Below, one piece after another: positions 1,504-38,059 of a DNA stretch of 39,098 bases. The translations under genes and the position numbers were made by a program. The stretch spans positions 299 through 39,396 of IMG/VR virus record IMGVR_UViG_3300030406_001738; one strand, written 5' to 3'. Numbering within the stretch: position 1 is the stretch's first letter; every line of letters starts with the position of its first letter. Below the pieces are notes generated by a model that ran no database searches, was not told where the DNA came from, and saw only the letters and a program-made list of their open reading frames with translations. The stretch comes from a virus.

Positions 1504-1536
1504 TTTAAAAGTAAGTTATTCTGTCACCATCCCTGA

Positions 1537-1555
1537 CAGTCGCATGGGGCGACTG
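1537..1555 (+). promoter_or_regulatory. Stem-loop in the leader of the next virion gene
   Basis: CAGTCGC (1537-1543), loop ATGGG, GCGACTG (1549-1555) is a perfect seven-pair stem. It ends 24 nt before the next start codon and has no T tract, so it is not a terminator. It could protect the 5' end of the mRNA or be a processing site. No clear -10/-35 pair was found in 1504-1579. Confidence 0.4.
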
Positions 1556-1579
1556 ACTAACCCAAGACAGGAGATCGAC

Positions 1580-2041
1580 ATGGGTACAACAACTTTTTCT
1601 GGTCCTATTAAAGCAGGAACCATCAAAGAAACTACGGGTACAACCCTTGGTTCAAATATCAAAAACACTGGTCAAGTAGTAATGTCTCAGACATTTGCAG
1701 CAGATCTATCTGGTGGTGCATTAGCTGCACAAGTTACAGATGTTGTTATTCCTGCAAACTCTCAGATTATCGATTGTGTGCTTGACGTTATAACAGCAGC
1801 AAGTGGAGCTACAAATATAAGCGTTGGAGACACCGTTGGTGGTGCAGCAACTCTTGTAAATACATTTGGAATTGGAACTACCGCAGGACGCAAATATCCA
1901 ACTACCGAATCTGGTGGTGCATTAGCGTGGGAAGACACAGGAACAGCAGACATTCGTTTGACTGTTACTAACTCTGCCGCAACCTCTGCCGGTGAGATTC
2001 GTATTACTATTTTGTATGCTCAAAATAATAACCTTGGCTAA
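1580..2041 (+). CDS. Small virion protein, beta-rich
   Basis: 153 aa beginning MGTTTFSGPIKAGTIKETTG. A longer frame from 1472 would start inside the terminator; the ATG at 1580 has CAGGAG seven bases upstream and the protein reads naturally from there. The composition is Ala/Gly/Thr/Val-rich with alternating hydrophobic residues and no charged clusters, typical of a beta-sandwich capsid-surface or fibre-base protein. Similar short proteins starting TTFSGPIKAGTIKETTG are familiar to me from marine phages, where they sit after the capsid gene with unknown function. Placed between capsid and connector genes, it is most likely a head decoration or other virion protein. Confidence 0.7.
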   Translation: MGTTTFSGPIKAGTIKETTGTTLGSNIKNTGQVVMSQTFAADLSGGALAAQVTDVVIPANSQIIDCVLDVITAASGATNISVGDTVGGAATLVNTFGIGTTAGRKYPTTESGGALAWEDTGTADIRLTVTNSAATSAGEIRITILYAQNNNLG

Positions 2042-3340: not shown

Positions 3341-3716
3341 ATTAAAAAAATGGTTAAAACAAGATTGGGTTAGAATTGGCTCAGATGGTAGCATAAAAGG
3401 CAAGTGTGGTACGTCTAAGAATAAAAAGAATCCTGACAGATGTTTACCAAGAGCAAAAGCAGAAAGCCTTTCCAAAGCAGAGCGAAAGAAAACTGCTCAA
3501 AAGAAAAAACGAGAAGGTAAAAAAGGTAGAACTGTTGTTAAAAACACGAAAGCAGCAGAGGTCAAAAACCTTAAAAATGGAGGTGAAATAAAGACAACTA
3601 AGCCAAAAAGACCTTTTAGAGGTAAGTCACAAAAAGGTACAGCAGTGGCTAGAGGTTGTGGGGCAATCATGCCTAATCGTCGTAAGAGAACCAAAGGTGC
3701 AGTTAGACAGTTTTGA
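3333..3716 (+). CDS. Basic Cys-containing small protein
   Basis: 127 aa starting MGELKKWLKQDWVRIGSDG. It has the pattern GKCGTSKNKKNPDRCLPRAKAESLSKAERKKTAQKKKRE, with Cys about 14 residues apart, and a C-terminal ARGCGAIMPNRRKRTKGAVRQF. A middle NLKNGGEIK run resembles the KNGG repeats of the next gene. The chosen start overlaps the previous stop by 8 nt (ATGGGTGA); an upstream start at 3285 would lie inside the previous gene and reads less naturally. The family is known to me from marine phages (WLxQDWVRI plus CGTSK), function unknown. The very high Lys content again suggests nucleic-acid contact. Confidence 0.65.
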   Translation: MGELKKWLKQDWVRIGSDGSIKGKCGTSKNKKNPDRCLPRAKAESLSKAERKKTAQKKKREGKKGRTVVKNTKAAEVKNLKNGGEIKTTKPKRPFRGKSQKGTAVARGCGAIMPNRRKRTKGAVRQF

Positions 3717-3729
3717 AAGGAGAACTCAC

Positions 3730-3969
3730 ATGGCTATGAAGAAGAAAAAGGGCTACCGTAATGGCGGCAAAATAAAACCCAAAGGGATGAAAAACGGTGG
3801 CAAGGTCAAGCCCAAGGGAATGAAGAACGGTGGCAAGGTTAAGCCCAAAGGGATGAAGAATGGTGGCAAGGTTAAGCCTAAGGGTATGAAGAATGGTGGC
3901 AAGGTTAAGCCTAAGGGTATGGTTAAAGGTGGTAGAGTTGGTGGCTCTGGATTTAAAGGAATCTTCTAA
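3730..3969 (+). CDS. KNGGKV-repeat basic protein
   Basis: 79 aa made almost wholly of an 11-residue unit, MKNGGKVKPKG: four full copies, one variant before them (YRNGGKIKPKG) and one after (MVKGGRVGGSG). The ATG at 3730 has AAGGAGAA upstream. A longer frame from 3658 would run through the previous gene. The repeat has no acidic residue, so the protein is strongly cationic and probably unfolded by itself. It could bind DNA, RNA or an acidic partner in the particle. Each copy starts with Met, and the tract could vary in copy number between relatives. Confidence 0.65.
   Translation: MAMKKKKGYRNGGKIKPKGMKNGGKVKPKGMKNGGKVKPKGMKNGGKVKPKGMKNGGKVKPKGMVKGGRVGGSGFKGIF
3787..3918 (+). repeat. 33-bp tandem repeat, four units
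   Basis: Units start at 3787, 3820, 3853 and 3886, each encoding MKNGGKVKPKG. They differ only at a few third positions (for example AAAAAC/AAGAAC/AAGAAT and CCCAAG/CCTAAG). The last two units are the most alike, which suggests recent duplication by slippage or unequal recombination. Confidence 0.85.
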
Positions 3970-3974
3970 CTAGA

Positions 3975-4661
3975 ATGCCATATCTACAAAGTAATATTCC
4001 TTATTTTAAGGCTTGGGTTCGTCGTGAATACACACATAATCATGAACAATATCACGGTGAGTTTCTTCATGCTATGGTTGTTGCTGTAACAACTATTCCT
4101 AATAGATCCCTTAGTTTTCAAGTAATCTTTACTGGTTGCGAGGCGGAGGGTGAAGAAGAGGATACCGTTCACGGTGGTGCAATGTGGGCAAGAATGCCTA
4201 TCACGGCATTGGTTGCAGACATCCCGCTCGAAGAGTGGCCTGAACCTATGGCAACACATGATGCACAGCCTTGGGATTGTGCTTCTCATTACCATTCCGT
4301 TTACGTCTTAGAAAGAGCTACACCGTGTCCATGGTTAGCCAAAATAAACGGCGAGATGTTTCCTGCCAAGTATCTGTTTACTGTAGACTATACCAACAGT
4401 GAGATTGCAGATGATCCGGCACAACATAAACAAAGCCATGTGATGCAATTGTTGAACGCAGGAGAATGGACAGGAAACATAGTGGCGTTACCAAACAATC
4501 GAGTGAGGGTGACACATCCTGCTTGGTTTGCGGTAGGTGAGGGTGCACCAGACTTTAGACCTTCACAACATATACACTATTCAAAAAGTGATTTAGACTA
4601 TACACTAGATGTGAATAGAGTTTTTGATAATCTTTATAATCAGGAGGATAACGATGGCTAA
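3975..4661 (+). CDS. Conserved phage protein of unknown function, His-rich N-terminus
   Basis: 228 aa. The N-terminus MPYLQSNIPYFKAWVRREYTHNHEQYHGEFLHAMVVAV is a stretch I know from marine phages without function. Four His in about 12 residues (THNHEQYHGEFLH) could bind a metal. Later features are TGCEAEGEEEDTVHGGAMWARMPI, CASHYHSVYVLER and a C-terminal half ending RPSQHIHYSKSDLDYTLDVNRVFDNLYNQ. It is acidic, in contrast to the basic proteins before it. It lies between head and connector genes and overlaps the next start by 8 nt. A virion or assembly role is possible; an enzyme cannot be excluded. Confidence 0.6.
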   Translation: MPYLQSNIPYFKAWVRREYTHNHEQYHGEFLHAMVVAVTTIPNRSLSFQVIFTGCEAEGEEEDTVHGGAMWARMPITALVADIPLEEWPEPMATHDAQPWDCASHYHSVYVLERATPCPWLAKINGEMFPAKYLFTVDYTNSEIADDPAQHKQSHVMQLLNAGEWTGNIVALPNNRVRVTHPAWFAVGEGAPDFRPSQHIHYSKSDLDYTLDVNRVFDNLYNQEDNDG

Positions 4662-10366: not shown

Positions 10367-11458
10367 ATGTTAGGCTTTACACCTGTAGCCTCCGCAACAC
10401 TCGCGAGTAGTGGCAGTACTGATGTATCAGTATCCGTTACAGGTCTAGCCGCAACAGGTGCTTTAGGATCAGTAAGTGTAAGCACTGATGTATCGGTATC
10501 TGTTACAGGTCTAGCGTCTACGAGTGGCTTAGGGTCAGTAAGTGTTATTGGAGCATCTGATACTCCTGCTACAGGTTTATCAGCAACAGCCTCTGTTGGT
10601 TCTGTTAGCGTAAGTGCTAACTCCTCTCTTTCTGTTACAGGCTTAGAATCCACTGGTAATTTAAATTCTGTCACTGTAAGTGGACAAGCAGTCGTATCAA
10701 CAGGATCATTAGCAGCTCAAGGATTTGTAGGAAGTCTTACTTCTGGTGGCGCAGCATTTGTTATTGTCACTGGTCTAGAAGCAACAGGTGGAGTTGGGAC
10801 GGTTACTGTGGCCGCCGATGCGCTTGTCTCACCTACAGGGCTTTCTGCTACGGGTGAGGTAAATTCTGTTGTTGTTACCCCTCGAATAATTGTTACCCCG
10901 ACAGGTTTGGAAGCCACTGGTGGTTTAGGAAGCCCAACAATAACAGGTAATGCAAACGTTCCTCCAACAGGTTTAGAGGCTACGGGTGAGGTAAATTCTG
11001 TAACTGTAACTGCTGATGCGGTTGTCTCTCCCACTGGATTAAGTGCAACAGGCGCTACAGATGATGTAACCGTAACTGCTGACGCACTTGTCTCTCCTAC
11101 TGGATTAGGTGCAACAGGTTCTGTGGGGACAGTTACAATTGCAACGATAACAATTGTTGGTGTAACAGGACTTTCTGCAACAGGTGCTTTAGGTGATGCA
11201 ACTGCAACTGCTGGTGCTACGGTTTCAGTTACAGGACTTTCTGCAACAGGTGAGGTGACATCTCCAATAATTTGGGGTAGAATAGTTCCAGATCCAAACA
11301 ATACTTGGAGTAATATAACACCAAACCCAAGCAACACTTGGAGTGGAGTAACACCAAACCCAGGAACTTCTTGGTCTGAGGAAACACCAAACCCAGGAAC
11401 TTCTTGGTCTGAGGAAACACCAAGTCCAAATACAACTTGGACGGATATAGCTGCGTAA
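10367..11458 (+). CDS. Repeat virion protein (VTGLxATGxVGxVxV units)
   Basis: 363 aa. After about 19 residues it is built from about 13 units of 20-22 residues with consensus V-x-x-TGL-x-ATG-x-x-GSVTV, then five 11-residue units of type TPNPGTSWSEE. It is almost free of Lys and Arg. The first repeat likely forms a stack of beta-strand pairs, a shaft or surface spike; the second, with regular Trp, may form a tip. Related proteins in marine phages carry the same TGVxATGxVGTVTV units near tail genes. The same unit appears in the tail protein at 13338. Role: probable virion surface or fibre protein. Confidence 0.65.
   Translation: MLGFTPVASATLASSGSTDVSVSVTGLAATGALGSVSVSTDVSVSVTGLASTSGLGSVSVIGASDTPATGLSATASVGSVSVSANSSLSVTGLESTGNLNSVTVSGQAVVSTGSLAAQGFVGSLTSGGAAFVIVTGLEATGGVGTVTVAADALVSPTGLSATGEVNSVVVTPRIIVTPTGLEATGGLGSPTITGNANVPPTGLEATGEVNSVTVTADAVVSPTGLSATGATDDVTVTADALVSPTGLGATGSVGTVTIATITIVGVTGLSATGALGDATATAGATVSVTGLSATGEVTSPIIWGRIVPDPNNTWSNITPNPSNTWSGVTPNPGTSWSEETPNPGTSWSEETPSPNTTWTDIAA
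10424..11284 (+). repeat. Coding repeats, TGLxATG units
   Basis: About 13 imperfect units of 60-69 bp, each coding TGL/TGS, an ATG-like tripeptide and a V-x-V strand. Stretches such as CTACAGGTCTAGC and GCAACAGGTGAGGT recur. Units near 10970-11130 are the most alike (TADAxVSPTGLxATG), which suggests recent internal duplication. Confidence 0.75.
11285..11449 (+). repeat. 33-bp tandem repeats, five units
   Basis: Units start at 11285, 11318, 11351, 11384 and 11417 and code 11 residues with a fixed Trp (PNPGTSWSEET type). Units 3 and 4 (11351-11383 and 11384-11416) are identical at the DNA level, a recent duplication. Confidence 0.85.
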
Positions 11459-34978: not shown

Positions 34979-35219
34979 CCTTGACCACCTCCCACACGCC
35001 CTCTGCGCCTGCGTCTATATTAGTGTCCCGAACCAAACCTTTTTTGTGTAGCTGCGAAAGATTGTTTCGCACAATTGATAACTTCAAACCCATCCGGTCT
35101 GACAATTGTCGCGCTGTCCCTGGACCTCGATCGAGTTCAGCCAAGACTTGCTCCTTCCGAGTAAGTGCCTTGTTACTTCGACGCTTGTTAGTTAATCGTT
35201 TCCAAAACTCCTTGATCAT
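34971..35219 (-). CDS. Winged-helix regulator
   Basis: 82 aa. Residues 17-80 form a winged helix: LTRKEQVLAELDRGPGTARQLSDRMGLKLSIVRNNLSQLHKKGLVRDTNIDAGAEGVWEVV. The recognition helix is KLSIVRNNLSQLHKKGLV, and the wing ends EGVWEV. The N-terminus is very basic (KRLTNKRRSNKALTRKE). It is probably a transcription regulator of the phage. It overlaps the XRE regulator gene by one base (TAATG) and the next gene by 8 nt, so the two regulators are made together. Confidence 0.75.
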   Translation of the reverse strand: MIKEFWKRLTNKRRSNKALTRKEQVLAELDRGPGTARQLSDRMGLKLSIVRNNLSQLHKKGLVRDTNIDAGAEGVWEVVKDV

Positions 35220-35656
35220 TAGTCTTCTCCTTTTCTCTTGATCCTTGTGTTCACACCTAAGTTGTAAACCAGTTCTTGTTTAAAATCACATAATCTTTTC
35301 TGAACCTTTGCAGGGTCTACCGTCTCAATCAGTTCATCCAATCGATCCACGACGTAGTGCATACATACTCTGTCATCTACATCATTTGCGGTTAATTTAG
35401 ATAAATGATCGGACATGAAACTTGCTTTTTCTGCGGACGTTTGTTTTTGATGCTCCTCTTCATTTGTTGCGTACAAAAAACTTGTATCCTCCAACGCAAT
35501 TGCAAGTTTTTCTAGAGGAATAAATCTAGGAAACTTAACCTCATTGCGTTCAAGCCTGCTTAGTAAAGATTGGCTCACCCCCGCTTTTTCTGCCAGTTCG
35601 CATTGGTTATAAAACTTTAATTTTCTTAATCTTTTCAATTTTTTTCCGTCAATCAT
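35219..35656 (-). CDS. XRE-family regulator
   Basis: 145 aa. The N-terminus is a lambda-repressor-like helix-turn-helix: KKLKRLRKLKFYNQCELAEKAGVSQSLLSRLERNEVKFPRFIPLEKLAIAL. The recognition helix is VSQSLLSRLERN. The C-terminal part is helical and acidic (KASFMSDHLSKLTANDVDDRVCMHYVVDRLDELIETVDPAKVQKRL), perhaps for dimer formation. The ATG at 35656 with GGAGG is chosen over a TTG at 35668; it overlaps the previous stop by 4 nt. It lacks an S24 cleavage domain, so it is not a classic CI repressor. Confidence 0.8.
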   Translation of the reverse strand: MIDGKKLKRLRKLKFYNQCELAEKAGVSQSLLSRLERNEVKFPRFIPLEKLAIALEDTSFLYATNEEEHQKQTSAEKASFMSDHLSKLTANDVDDRVCMHYVVDRLDELIETVDPAKVQKRLCDFKQELVYNLGVNTRIKRKGED

Positions 35657-35865
35657 GCTATCCTCCAAACACGATATCCATTTTCAACCTTTCTACAGCT
35701 ACCTTTCCGTCCAAGCTTTTTTAGTTTGGCGGCAAGGTCACATCCTTTTGATCTTCCTTTTGATCCTTCAAAAAACACACTGTCCTTAACATCCATTTTA
35801 GATGCAACCTCACGCATTTTATTTTTCTCTGGCATGGGTATATTCTTCTCTATTTTATATTCCAT
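35653..35865 (-). CDS. DUF7303-like small basic protein
   Basis: 70 aa: IPMPEKNKMREVASKMDVKDSVFFEGSKGRSKGCDLAAKLKKLGRKGSCRKVENGYRVWRIA. The pattern (IPMP, then a KMDVKDSVFF strand, a helix and a C-terminal YRVWRI strand) is one I know from phages and bacteria as DUF7303; the number is from memory. These are small, basic and probably nucleic-acid-binding or nuclease-inhibitor-like proteins with no proven role. The start has GGAGAAGG upstream and lies 11 nt inside the gene before it. Confidence 0.65.
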   Translation of the reverse strand: MEYKIEKNIPMPEKNKMREVASKMDVKDSVFFEGSKGRSKGCDLAAKLKKLGRKGSCRKVENGYRVWRIA

Positions 35866-36202
35866 CCTTCTTCTCCCATTGATTTACTTCAGCGTACCAC
35901 TTGTCTGTGCTCCTACTTCGACAGACTTGTGCATTGATCCACTCGCCCTCCTGTTCTTGTAGCCATCGAATGAAATCTTCTCTGTGTATACTCAGATCAA
36001 ACAATACCCACGCAGGTTTGCCCTTCGGTTCTTTCGTATAAAATCCTTTCAAAAATATCTTTTCTTTCGATGCTCTGTGCTCACCGAGTTTTTTGATAAG
36101 TTCGTCTGCTTTCTTCCGACACATCGATGCTTCCTCAAAAGAACACGCAGGATCTTTTGCCTTCCGTAACAAGGCTTCAAGACGTTCATAATCATCAGCC
36201 AT
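35855..36202 (-). CDS. DUF2786-like N-terminus with new C-terminal domain
   Basis: 115 aa. Residues 5-38 (YERLEALLRKAKDPACSFEEASMCRKKADELIKKLGE) resemble the DUF2786 helical module of phage proteins. Then EPKGKPAWVLFDLSIHREDFIRWLQEQEGEWINAQVCRSRSTDKWYAEVNQWEKK forms a second domain, alpha/beta in look. The C-terminal motif PKGKPxWxLxDL is also in the gene at 38796. It overlaps its neighbours by 1 and 11 nt. Function unknown; the second domain may bind nucleic acid. Confidence 0.6.
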   Translation of the reverse strand: MADDYERLEALLRKAKDPACSFEEASMCRKKADELIKKLGEHRASKEKIFLKGFYTKEPKGKPAWVLFDLSIHREDFIRWLQEQEGEWINAQVCRSRSTDKWYAEVNQWEKKDGI

Positions 36203-36642
36203 TATAATTCCTCAAATTTATCAAGTTTCTCTTTCAATAGTTTATGTACTCTTTCTGCTTCGGCTTGCTCCGATTTAAAAACCGTCATAAAAATACTTGG
36301 ATCTCTTTTTCCAAATCTTAGTTCGTCTTTCTCTCTTTCTTTAACTCTGTCAGAGATCTCAGTCGCATACCAATAGAGCGCACGTTGGATCAGTCGGGCA
36401 TCTTGCACATTGAAAAATATATATTCGTTTGGTTCTACTTTTTTCTTCTTTTGTGTAGAAGCAAGGTCTTGAATTGGTTGTCCGAAAAGAGCTTCCAACT
36501 TTTTACGGACAATGGTTCTTGGTTTTGTTTGACCAAGCTCAAACTGACTATAGGCTGCTTGCGTTATACCAACCTTCTCAGCCACCTCTTCTTGTTTCAT
36601 TTGTTTCTTTTGCCGTAACAATTTTAATGTTTCTGACATCAT
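36202..36642 (-). CDS. XRE-family regulator downstream of the methyltransferase
   Basis: 146 aa. Residues 3-50 form a helix-turn-helix: SETLKLLRQKKQMKQEEVAEKVGITQAAYSQFELGQTKPRTIVRKKLEALFG. The recognition helix is ITQAAYSQFELGQ. The C-terminus (YIFFNVQDARLIQRALYWYATEISDRVKEREKDELRFGKRDPSIFMTVFKSEQAEAERVHKLL) is helical and charged. It starts with GGAGG and ATGATG overlapping the methyltransferase stop, which resembles the controller genes of restriction-modification systems. No restriction nuclease is visible nearby, so control of the methyltransferase or of the phage switch are both possible. Confidence 0.8.
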   Translation of the reverse strand: MMSETLKLLRQKKQMKQEEVAEKVGITQAAYSQFELGQTKPRTIVRKKLEALFGQPIQDLASTQKKKKVEPNEYIFFNVQDARLIQRALYWYATEISDRVKEREKDELRFGKRDPSIFMTVFKSEQAEAERVHKLLKEKLDKFEEL

Positions 36643-37817
36643 CGAACCTCCATGTAACTTTCGATTAACCCTTGCGCGACTTGCGATGTGATGGCGTTGC
36701 CGTAGGCGCGGAGGCGTCCCACTCGGGCGGTAGCCCCATGAGCCAACGGGAATGTGTCGGGTTCAACTGGCCTCCACTTTCCATCTCGGCAGAGGAGCCA
36801 GTCCGCAGCTGACCAGAAGCCGTTAGTCTCATAGGCTCGGGTTTCGGTGTCATCTCCCCCTTTGCCTCCATCACCGCTTCGATCATCTCGGGAGATACTT
36901 GCTCCCTCAGATTGCACGGAAACGATCTGTTCTTTCTCGTCGTCTGGTGCATCTTGATCATTGCTTCTCGGCTCCGAAGAGGCAGACTGTCCATCGTGTT
37001 GGGCGTTGCCCATCCCGACATCTTTGCCATCTGGGTCAGGCTGCTCCCCGACATTCCGTCCGTGATCCCCGAACCTCCCCTCGTGCCGTCCGTTGCCGAT
37101 GGCGTTGTCCACCCCGACATCTGCGACTGCTCCGGCAAGTTGTGACCCCGACTGTTCCACTCCTTCACCGACTCTGGTTTCGCCGCTCCCTTGTGATCCG
37201 CCGTGGTCGGTGTCGCCCACCCTGTCAGTTGTGCCGCCACATCCAACGTGTCCGTGCTGATCTTGCCGTTGCGTATCCGACCTCCCTGATATCCACCCTT
37301 GTGATCTCGGGTTGTCGGTGTCGGCCACGAACCAGAGACGTTGCCTGATGTGCGGTGCACCGAAGCCCGCAGAGCAGAGATCGAAAGCCCCGATGGCGTA
37401 GTCCGATCCTTCCATGTCAGCTTGTACAAGGTCGATCCAACCGAGGCCGTCTTTGCTTGCAACCTGCTCTCCAAAGACCGTTGGAGGTCGGCACTCTTCG
37501 ATGAGGTGAAACCAGTGAGGCCAGAGGTGCCGCTCGTCAGCCATCCCTTTTCTTGTGCCTGCACCGCTGAAAGGTTGGCAAGGACACGATCCCGTCCAGA
37601 CGGGTCTGTCGTCCTCCCACCCTGCGGCTCTGAGCGCATGGCTCCAGACCCCGATTCCTGCGAAGAAGTGACACTGAGTAAATTGAAAAAGTTCTTCTGG
37701 TTTGACATCCGATATGCTCCTCTCATCGACCACACCATCGGCAATGTGACCATCTCTAATTAAGTTTCTTAACCATGCCGCAGCATATGGGTCTATCTCG
37801 TTGTAGTATGCGCTCAC
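36639..37817 (-). CDS. C5 cytosine DNA methyltransferase
   Basis: 392 aa starting with GTG (37817-37815), which overlaps the previous stop by 4 nt; MSAYYNEIDPYAAAWLRNLI is the family start. Motif I F52-A-G-I-G (SAM binding), IV GSCPCQPFSG with catalytic C80, VI E117-Q-V (usually ENV), VIII HIRQRLWFVAD (157-166), and the end motif RLRAYGNAITSQVAQ. Residues about 167-330 should be the target-recognition region but are Gly/Asp/Gln/Arg-rich with VADTDN/VGDTDH-type repeats. The region is visibly more GC-rich than its neighbours, a sign of transfer. It would methylate cytosine to protect phage DNA. A second long frame covers most of it. Confidence 0.85.
   Translation of the reverse strand: MSAYYNEIDPYAAAWLRNLIRDGHIADGVVDERSISDVKPEELFQFTQCHFFAGIGVWSHALRAAGWEDDRPVWTGSCPCQPFSGAGTRKGMADERHLWPHWFHLIEECRPPTVFGEQVASKDGLGWIDLVQADMEGSDYAIGAFDLCSAGFGAPHIRQRLWFVADTDNPRSQGWISGRSDTQRQDQHGHVGCGGTTDRVGDTDHGGSQGSGETRVGEGVEQSGSQLAGAVADVGVDNAIGNGRHEGRFGDHGRNVGEQPDPDGKDVGMGNAQHDGQSASSEPRSNDQDAPDDEKEQIVSVQSEGASISRDDRSGDGGKGGDDTETRAYETNGFWSAADWLLCRDGKWRPVEPDTFPLAHGATARVGRLRAYGNAITSQVAQGLIESYMEVR
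36665..37708 (-). CDS. Overprinted protein inside the methyltransferase gene
   Basis: 347 aa in the +1 frame of the methyltransferase, open over 1,044 nt. The ATG at 37708 has GAGAGGAG about nine bases upstream. The chain has STLYKLTWKDRTTPSGLSISALRASVHRTSG, then four spaced units W128-P-T-P, W164-A-T-P, W200-T-T-P and W233-A-T-P (36, 36 and 33 residues apart; units such as TTRDHKG and TTADHKG), and ends with LNPTHSRWLMGLPPEW (residues 315-330). I remember database proteins with GWPTPTxRDxKG repeats and NPxxSRWLMGxPxEW ends near phage methyltransferases. The function and even its translation are unproven; it may be a real second product or a by-product of the methyltransferase repeats. Confidence 0.5.
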   Translation of the reverse strand: MSNQKNFFNLLSVTSSQESGSGAMRSEPQGGRTTDPSGRDRVLANLSAVQAQEKGWLTSGTSGLTGFTSSKSADLQRSLESRLQAKTASVGSTLYKLTWKDRTTPSGLSISALRASVHRTSGNVSGSWPTPTTRDHKGGYQGGRIRNGKISTDTLDVAAQLTGWATPTTADHKGAAKPESVKEWNSRGHNLPEQSQMSGWTTPSATDGTRGGSGITDGMSGSSLTQMAKMSGWATPNTMDSLPLRSREAMIKMHQTTRKNRSFPCNLREQVSPEMIEAVMEAKGEMTPKPEPMRLTASGQLRTGSSAEMESGGQLNPTHSRWLMGLPPEWDASAPTATPSHRKSRKG

Positions 37818-38059
37818 TTCATTGCCCCCCAACTTCCTGACAACAACTCTCTGAGAAACTCTACGCTATCTAATTCCATCTTGCGCATCTCCTTTTCTCT
37901 TGGATCTCGTGACACATCCAGATCACGTAGATGCTCTTGCAAATGATCCAACGCAACTTGCAACGTGTTCACGTCCATGTAGTTGAGTTGAGCAGCCGCT
38001 CCATTCGGGAGCACAAGATATGTGTGCCCCATCGGTAAATCTAAAACTCGCTTACTCAT
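37814..38059 (-). CDS. Small helical protein before the methyltransferase
   Basis: 81 aa beginning MSKRVLDLPMGHTYLVLPNG, then AAAQLNYMDVNTLQVALDHLQEHLRDLDVSRDPREKEMRKMELDSVEFLRELLSGSWGAMK. The start at 38059 has GGAGG six to seven bases upstream and overlaps the previous stop by 8 nt (ATGAGTAA). A longer frame up to 38239 would lie inside the gene before it. A short beta part is followed by charged helices. It overlaps the methyltransferase start by 4 nt. No known family; it could be an accessory of the methyltransferase or a host-interaction protein. Confidence 0.6.
   Translation of the reverse strand: MSKRVLDLPMGHTYLVLPNGAAAQLNYMDVNTLQVALDHLQEHLRDLDVSRDPREKEMRKMELDSVEFLRELLSGSWGAMK

Follow-up and report, generated by a model that had tools for sequence, protein, structure and literature searches.

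The small subunit of the cytosine-5 DNA methyltransferase M.EcoHK31I is reportedly read from an alternative frame inside the gene of the large subunit, as Lee, Kam and Shaw are said to have described in 1995. In this two-polypeptide enzyme (specificity YGGCCR), motifs I-VIII and X are carried by the large subunit, which also holds the predicted recognition domain, and motif IX resides on the separate small polypeptide (PMC3404938). Another C5-methyltransferase, M.AquI, is split in two polypeptides after motif VIII, its small subunit consisting of the distal variable region and motifs IX-X (PMC3404938). Among phage enzymes, the Bacillus C5-methyltransferases of SPR, SP-beta, phi3T, rho11, and H2 contain tandem recognition modules that widen specificity (PMC8936443), and ShiLan exemplifies an out-of-frame HNH insertion in phage methylases (PMC11855218).

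The locus described here lies in the window, i.e., the whole stretch of 39,098 nucleotides that was analyzed; the IMG/VR virus record containing this stretch is 39,396 bp long. The locus has two long overlapping frames, here termed alpha and beta. Judging from their sequences, these most probably specify the two subunits of a cytosine-5 DNA methyltransferase of the same kind as M.EcoHK31I, made from one overlapped gene. As in M.EcoHK31I (compared by description rather than by sequence), alpha has motifs I-VIII and X without IX, and a second polypeptide lies in an alternative frame inside the first gene, as indicated by selection for the window pair and reportedly for M.EcoHK31I. The window pair differs from M.EcoHK31I in that alpha is unconstrained at the expected place of a recognition domain, beta, with its four cassettes, is longer (347 aa), and the pair is phage-borne with no restriction gene seen. 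M.AquI is likewise a C5-methyltransferase on two polypeptides; however, in the window pair motif X stays in alpha, and beta overlies most of alpha. The Bacillus multispecific enzymes are also phage C5-methyltransferases with tandem modules, for which the units of beta are candidate counterparts, but the Bacillus modules are in the frame of the catalytic domain, whereas the candidate modules of beta are in the +1 frame. ShiLan, too, has a phage methylase gene that conceals a second protein in another frame, although this protein is a mobile homing endonuclease insertion, whereas beta is widely conserved with the methyltransferase and extends over most of the gene.

Layout of the locus and the putative catalytic subunit

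Alpha, the putative C5-cytosine methyltransferase large subunit, spans positions 36639-37817 on the minus strand (GTG 37817 to TGA 36639, 392 aa), its ORF being open from TTG 37832. The overlapping gene beta occupies positions 36665-37708 in the +1 frame (ATG 37708 to TAA 36665, 347 aa), with coordinates exactly as given in the initial annotation of this DNA; as are all alpha and beta features below, it is on the minus strand. The features that had been noted with it were reproduced as well: the beta ATG is preceded by GATGAGAGGAGCATATCGG, four W[PAT]TP units are spaced 36, 36, and 33 residues apart and read in the alpha frame as VADTDN and VGDTDH (with VDNAIGN and MGNAQHD for the other two), beta has the distinctive C-terminal end LNPTHSRWLMGLPPEW, and alpha motifs I, IV, VI, VIII, and X (GNAI) are all present. 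The overprinted pair that had been proposed is real by the measure of sequence evolution, on which evidence both frames of the overlap are protein-coding genes.

Motifs I (37617-37670), IV (PCQ, 37557-37598), VI (37446-37478), and VIII (37323-37361) identify alpha as a C5-cytosine DNA methyltransferase. Its catalytic core (37323-37670) was delimited from the alignment of alpha proteins and by hhalign to a canonical C5 profile (probability 98.8). Alpha matched phrog_363 in the PHROG library (E 2.6e-82) and PF00145 in Pfam (39.8 bits, over profile positions 66-161 only), and its Foldseek matches were M.HaeIII and M.HhaI (E about 1e-6). Alpha resembles canonical enzymes as far as motif VIII, after which both the PF00145 and hhalign alignments end, and again from motif X (RAYGNAI, 36690-36710), which together with NGFWSAADWLLCRDGKWRPVEPDTFPLAHG...RVG forms a conserved C-terminal block (36690-36824) recognized from invariant columns in the alpha alignment. 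The intervening linker (36825-37322) is unconstrained in the alpha frame (dN/dS about 1.3) and predicted to be disordered, with residues 173-336 of the AlphaFold model having pLDDT <50 and no secondary structure. Neither a target-recognition domain nor motif IX was found in the alpha chain with PF00145, hhalign, or a frame-0 motif IX search.

Cassettes and the motif IX-like block of beta

Beta matched two PHROG families, phrog_31772 (E 1.1e-40) and phrog_1008 (E 1e-33), both of which hold the same +1-frame protein and carry the name 'DNA methyltransferase'; since the libraries are silent on the out-of-frame overlap of these families with phrog_363 (alpha), the family name may mislead. Beta had no match in PDB sequences, Pfam, or NCBIfam, and its AlphaFold model, built from 31 sequences, was of low confidence (mean pLDDT 46). 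A conserved N-terminal element (LQRSLESRLQAKTASVGSTLYKLTWKDRTTPSG, 37388-37486), defined by conserved columns in the beta alignment, was modeled as a helix and a beta hairpin (pLDDT about 62-72). The four cassettes of the window comprise cassette 1 (WPTPTTRDHKGGYQGGRIRNGKISTDTLDVAAQLTG, 37220-37327), of a type found in 45 viral genes and 7 genes of bacterial genomes (52 in total); cassette 2 (WATPTTADHKGAAKPESVKEWNSRGHNLPEQSQMSG, 37112-37219), of a type found in 15 viral genes; cassette 3 (WTTPSATDGTRGGSGITDGMSGSSLTQMAKMSG, 37013-37111), of a type found in 32 genes; and cassette 4 with its spacer (WATPNTMDSLPLRSREAM...KPEPM, 36830-37012), whose NTMDxLPxRSxEA core is common to a beta of another clade (locus L317). 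Each beta has one to six cassettes (median 36 aa). These come from a shared repertoire in which at least 20 types recur: clustering gave 21 groups with members in 5 or more genes, a core stretch accounting for one of the groups. Marine phages, N15, and proteobacterial prophages have types in common. The initial annotation had placed the repeats just where the target-recognition domain should be; rather than lying over a normal domain of this type, they are best read as replacing one in the other frame.

The C-terminus of beta is an LNPxHSRWLMGLPPEW block resembling C5 motif IX (36719-36766 in the window), with columns that are mostly invariant or nearly so in the beta alignment. When the beta profile was compared to the canonical C5 profile, the best local match, a short one, was motif IX (P 0.043, with 3 of 100 column-permuted profiles scoring as high), and motif IX was again the best, short match for the sister-clade beta profile (P 0.0046, also with 3 of 100 permuted profiles as high). 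Sister-clade betas are homologous to the beta of the window clade (hhalign 99.4, E 6e-22) and carry the block in the form LNPxWVEWLMGYPxGWT; one of these, LLTPEDGEELMGYPQEWT, is close to the canonical LTPRECARLMGFP. Along the DNA, the motifs are in canonical order, namely, I-VIII, candidate recognition region, IX-like block, and X, with the two middle elements in the +1 frame.

The co-occurrence of beta and motif IX was assessed in loci that were fetched with methyltransferase queries only and not chosen for beta. None of the 56 methyltransferases with an in-frame motif IX was accompanied by beta, compared to 20 of the 28 without a recognized in-frame motif IX (p 3e-13; p-values here and below are approximate because loci and pairs are phylogenetically related). 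The remaining 8 loci had neither beta nor a pattern-recognized motif IX, and on inspection most of them show an in-frame IX-like stretch. The presence of beta is exclusive with that of an in-frame motif IX.

Beta could also be a real protein that acts as an independent factor (e.g., in anti-restriction, DNA binding, or regulation) and is overprinted on the methyltransferase gene without being a subunit of the enzyme, a reading compatible with its low-confidence fold (mean pLDDT 46) and the lack of a match in PDB sequences. Physical overlap would, moreover, be enough by itself to hold both genes together. Nevertheless, we regard an independent factor as improbable, as the exclusivity of beta with in-frame motif IX, the best profile match to motif IX in two clades, the canonical motif order, and the missing constraint on any recognition region in alpha itself all argue for a methyltransferase subunit.

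Selection in the two frames and start signals of beta

An OLGenie-like count with our own script was applied to codon alignments of alpha: in 22 independent pairs, each isolated substitution was assigned to a class according to what it changes in either frame. The frame-resolved dN/dS in the catalytic core was 0.045 for alpha and 0.18 (0.11-0.26) for beta, and in the C-terminal block 0.11 and 0.18, respectively. Over the cassette region, alpha NN/SN was 1.30 (bootstrap 95% 0.71-2.64) and beta NN/NS was 0.074 (bootstrap 95% 0.050-0.097); since NN/NS compares second to first codon positions of alpha, even a single gene should give a ratio somewhat under 1, and the 0.07 observed for beta is far below that. 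Own-frame dN/dS of beta was 0.07-0.18 over the three regions tested, and the beta-frame ratio in the non-overlapped N-terminus of alpha was 1.13 with a wide error (0.26-8.5). Substitution over the cassettes has a three-base periodicity (0.20, 0.075, and 0.056 at alpha codon positions 1, 2, and 3) that follows the beta codons. Cassettes of the same type from different genes are 77% identical in beta versus 45% in alpha, and beta identity exceeds alpha identity in 41 of 42 types, the lone exception being a core stretch that was caught by the pattern and is no true cassette. Two sister clades repeat the frame switch (alpha 1.03 and beta 0.20 in 13 pairs; beta 0.04 in the other clade, from only 5 pairs). 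Selection, as read from these substitutions, moves from the alpha frame in the core to the beta frame in the cassettes; at the C-terminal block it acts on both. The initial annotation had raised selection on one frame only as an outcome that would speak against the pair; the constraint on beta extends over its whole length, and the frame left free over the repeats is that of alpha.

A predicted ribosome-binding site (AGAGGAG, with about 8 nt spacing) precedes ATG 37708, the two together spanning 37706-37727, and codon bias in the alpha frame follows these signals across homologs. The Arg codon that forms the SD is AGR in 51 of 96 distinct contexts versus a 20% background, and the Asp codon that forms the beta ATG is GAT in 77 of 90 versus a 33% background; an ATG is present at the beta start site in 74 of 96 distinct contexts. 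The SD and ATG of beta are conserved by this comparison.

Selection changes frame where shifts would be needed if programmed frameshifting produced one long polypeptide, entering the +1 frame past motif VIII and leaving it ahead of motif X, with beta as no separate product. Such a mechanism is very unlikely, given that a conserved SD and ATG, situated about 380 nt ahead of the switch, belong to beta itself, which also has a stop of its own, and that neither the constraint on the beta frame over the alpha core (0.18) nor the constraint on both frames at the C-terminus would be needed by a single chimeric product.

Openness of the +1 frame

The length of the +1 frame was compared to a null in which alpha codons were shuffled among synonymous positions, keeping the protein and its codon usage (300 shuffles). 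In the window alpha, the +1 frame is open for 364 codons, against a null mean of 180 and a maximum of 356, and the length of the other forward frame is not unusual. Homologs with a +1 frame broken by stops had been proposed as a counterindication and were looked for; the frame is open across most of the gene in all 57 distinct IMG/VR loci that were retrieved with alpha or beta as query, at lengths matched in ≤5% of shuffles per gene and in 0 of 300 for most. Among bacterial-genome loci, 73 of 78 reached p≤0.05, in a sample that is biased toward open +1 frames because these loci were found through beta. Twenty canonical C5-methyltransferase genes, taken as a group, had no excess of +1-frame openness (median open fraction 0.17; one gene at p 0.01). 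That the +1 frame is untranslated, and kept open by composition or by features of the DNA or RNA such as repeats or recombination cassettes, has hardly any likelihood, for although the genes are G+C-rich (0.56 GC at window positions 37001-38000), which lowers stop frequency, and the cassettes are repeats, the synonymous-shuffle null is rejected, substitution periodicity tracks beta codons over the cassettes, the SD and ATG are conserved, and canonical methyltransferases as a group lack an open +1 frame.

Proposed function and origin

Under the preferred reading, a two-subunit C5-methyltransferase, ribosomes would initiate beta at an internal binding site of its own within the alpha gene, and beta would bind alpha, supplying the small domain that alpha lacks, i.e., motif IX and, via the W[PAT]TP cassettes, probably target recognition; alpha would contribute motif X along with AdoMet binding and catalysis. 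An ancestral one-frame methyltransferase may have taken a +1 shift and then a compensating shift, from which a canonical motif order with recognition and IX in the +1 frame is expected. The most likely role of such an enzyme is modification of phage DNA against host restriction enzymes, and the variable cassette arrays may provide several specificities for one phage. A single cassette may plausibly be a separate target-recognition unit. A broader proposal, which we put forward tentatively as somewhat short of an even chance, is that each ~36-residue W[PAT]TP cassette is a self-contained recognition unit shuffled by phages to give a combinatorial multispecific enzyme, and that phage C5-methyltransferases of this architecture form a major class that is for the most part mis-annotated.

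Distribution and annotation

Window-clade beta was found in 218 of 50,697 phage records and sister-clade beta in 88 phage records, mostly from Paenibacillus. All 80 beta-bearing bacterial loci had alpha in the same +1 relation, and the overlap architecture recurs in phages of Proteobacteria, Paenibacillus, Lacticaseibacillus, and mycobacteria. Restriction-linked relatives were searched for, and the beta-bearing loci looked like prophages. The supposition that beta is absent from the methyltransferases of Mycobacterium, Gordonia, and Paenibacillus phages proved partly wrong, as Paenibacillus and some Mycobacterium phages match sister-clade beta. Locus L335, considered as a one-frame fusion, was ruled out: its contig contains a frameshift, and alpha continues in another frame. 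At locus L162 (Consotaella salsifontis), a stop at 4477 splits alpha inside the cassette region and leaves beta intact, representing either a two-piece alpha or a sequencing error, and a decayed pair with stops in the alpha frame occurs on a Citrobacter amalonaticus plasmid (L282, 2480-3700). Diverged pairs with a single cassette were seen in Salmonella phage SAP012, Escherichia phage Bas80, and a Pseudochrobactrum plasmid (L278, L279, and L281); the gene tables of SAP012 and the Pseudochrobactrum plasmid have no gene over the methyltransferase.

Both frames are annotated in Xanthomonas phage PhiXhv-5 and E. coli phage K1G, and only alpha in epsilon15 and N15. The initial annotation had called the second product undescribed, which is too strong in view of the PHROG 1008 and 31772 matches, the 'Mte8-like' annotation of beta in K1G, and the M.EcoHK31I precedent; no paper on this overlap was found in the open-access literature. 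Same-strand genes that overlap by >1,000 nt, with purifying selection passing from one frame to the other along the way, are an unusual and clear-cut case. The usual annotation gives one frame, or names both 'DNA methyltransferase'; for many phage methyltransferases, the half responsible for recognition would thus be absent from the annotation or wrongly read, and alpha cloned alone would then be an inactive or mis-specified enzyme. Two testable questions are opened, namely, how phages change methylation specificity, and whether M.EcoHK31I, an old split-enzyme oddity, represents a large family.

Elsewhere in the window, two HTH repressor-like genes (35219-35668 and 36202-36642, minus strand) follow the methyltransferase gene downstream and share its orientation. 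An Rfam Mu-gpT-DE RNA (1531-1582, plus strand; 63 bits, gathering threshold 49) is located just 3′ of the major head protein gene. A 33-nt tandem repeat of 4.9 copies (3760-3921) gives rise to the KGMKNGGKVKP repeats of a small basic protein encoded by ORF 3658-3969, and 66-nt and 33-nt tandem repeats (10418-10545 and 11294-11440, respectively) lie inside the gene of a Ser/Thr/Gly-rich repeat protein (ORF 10367-11458).
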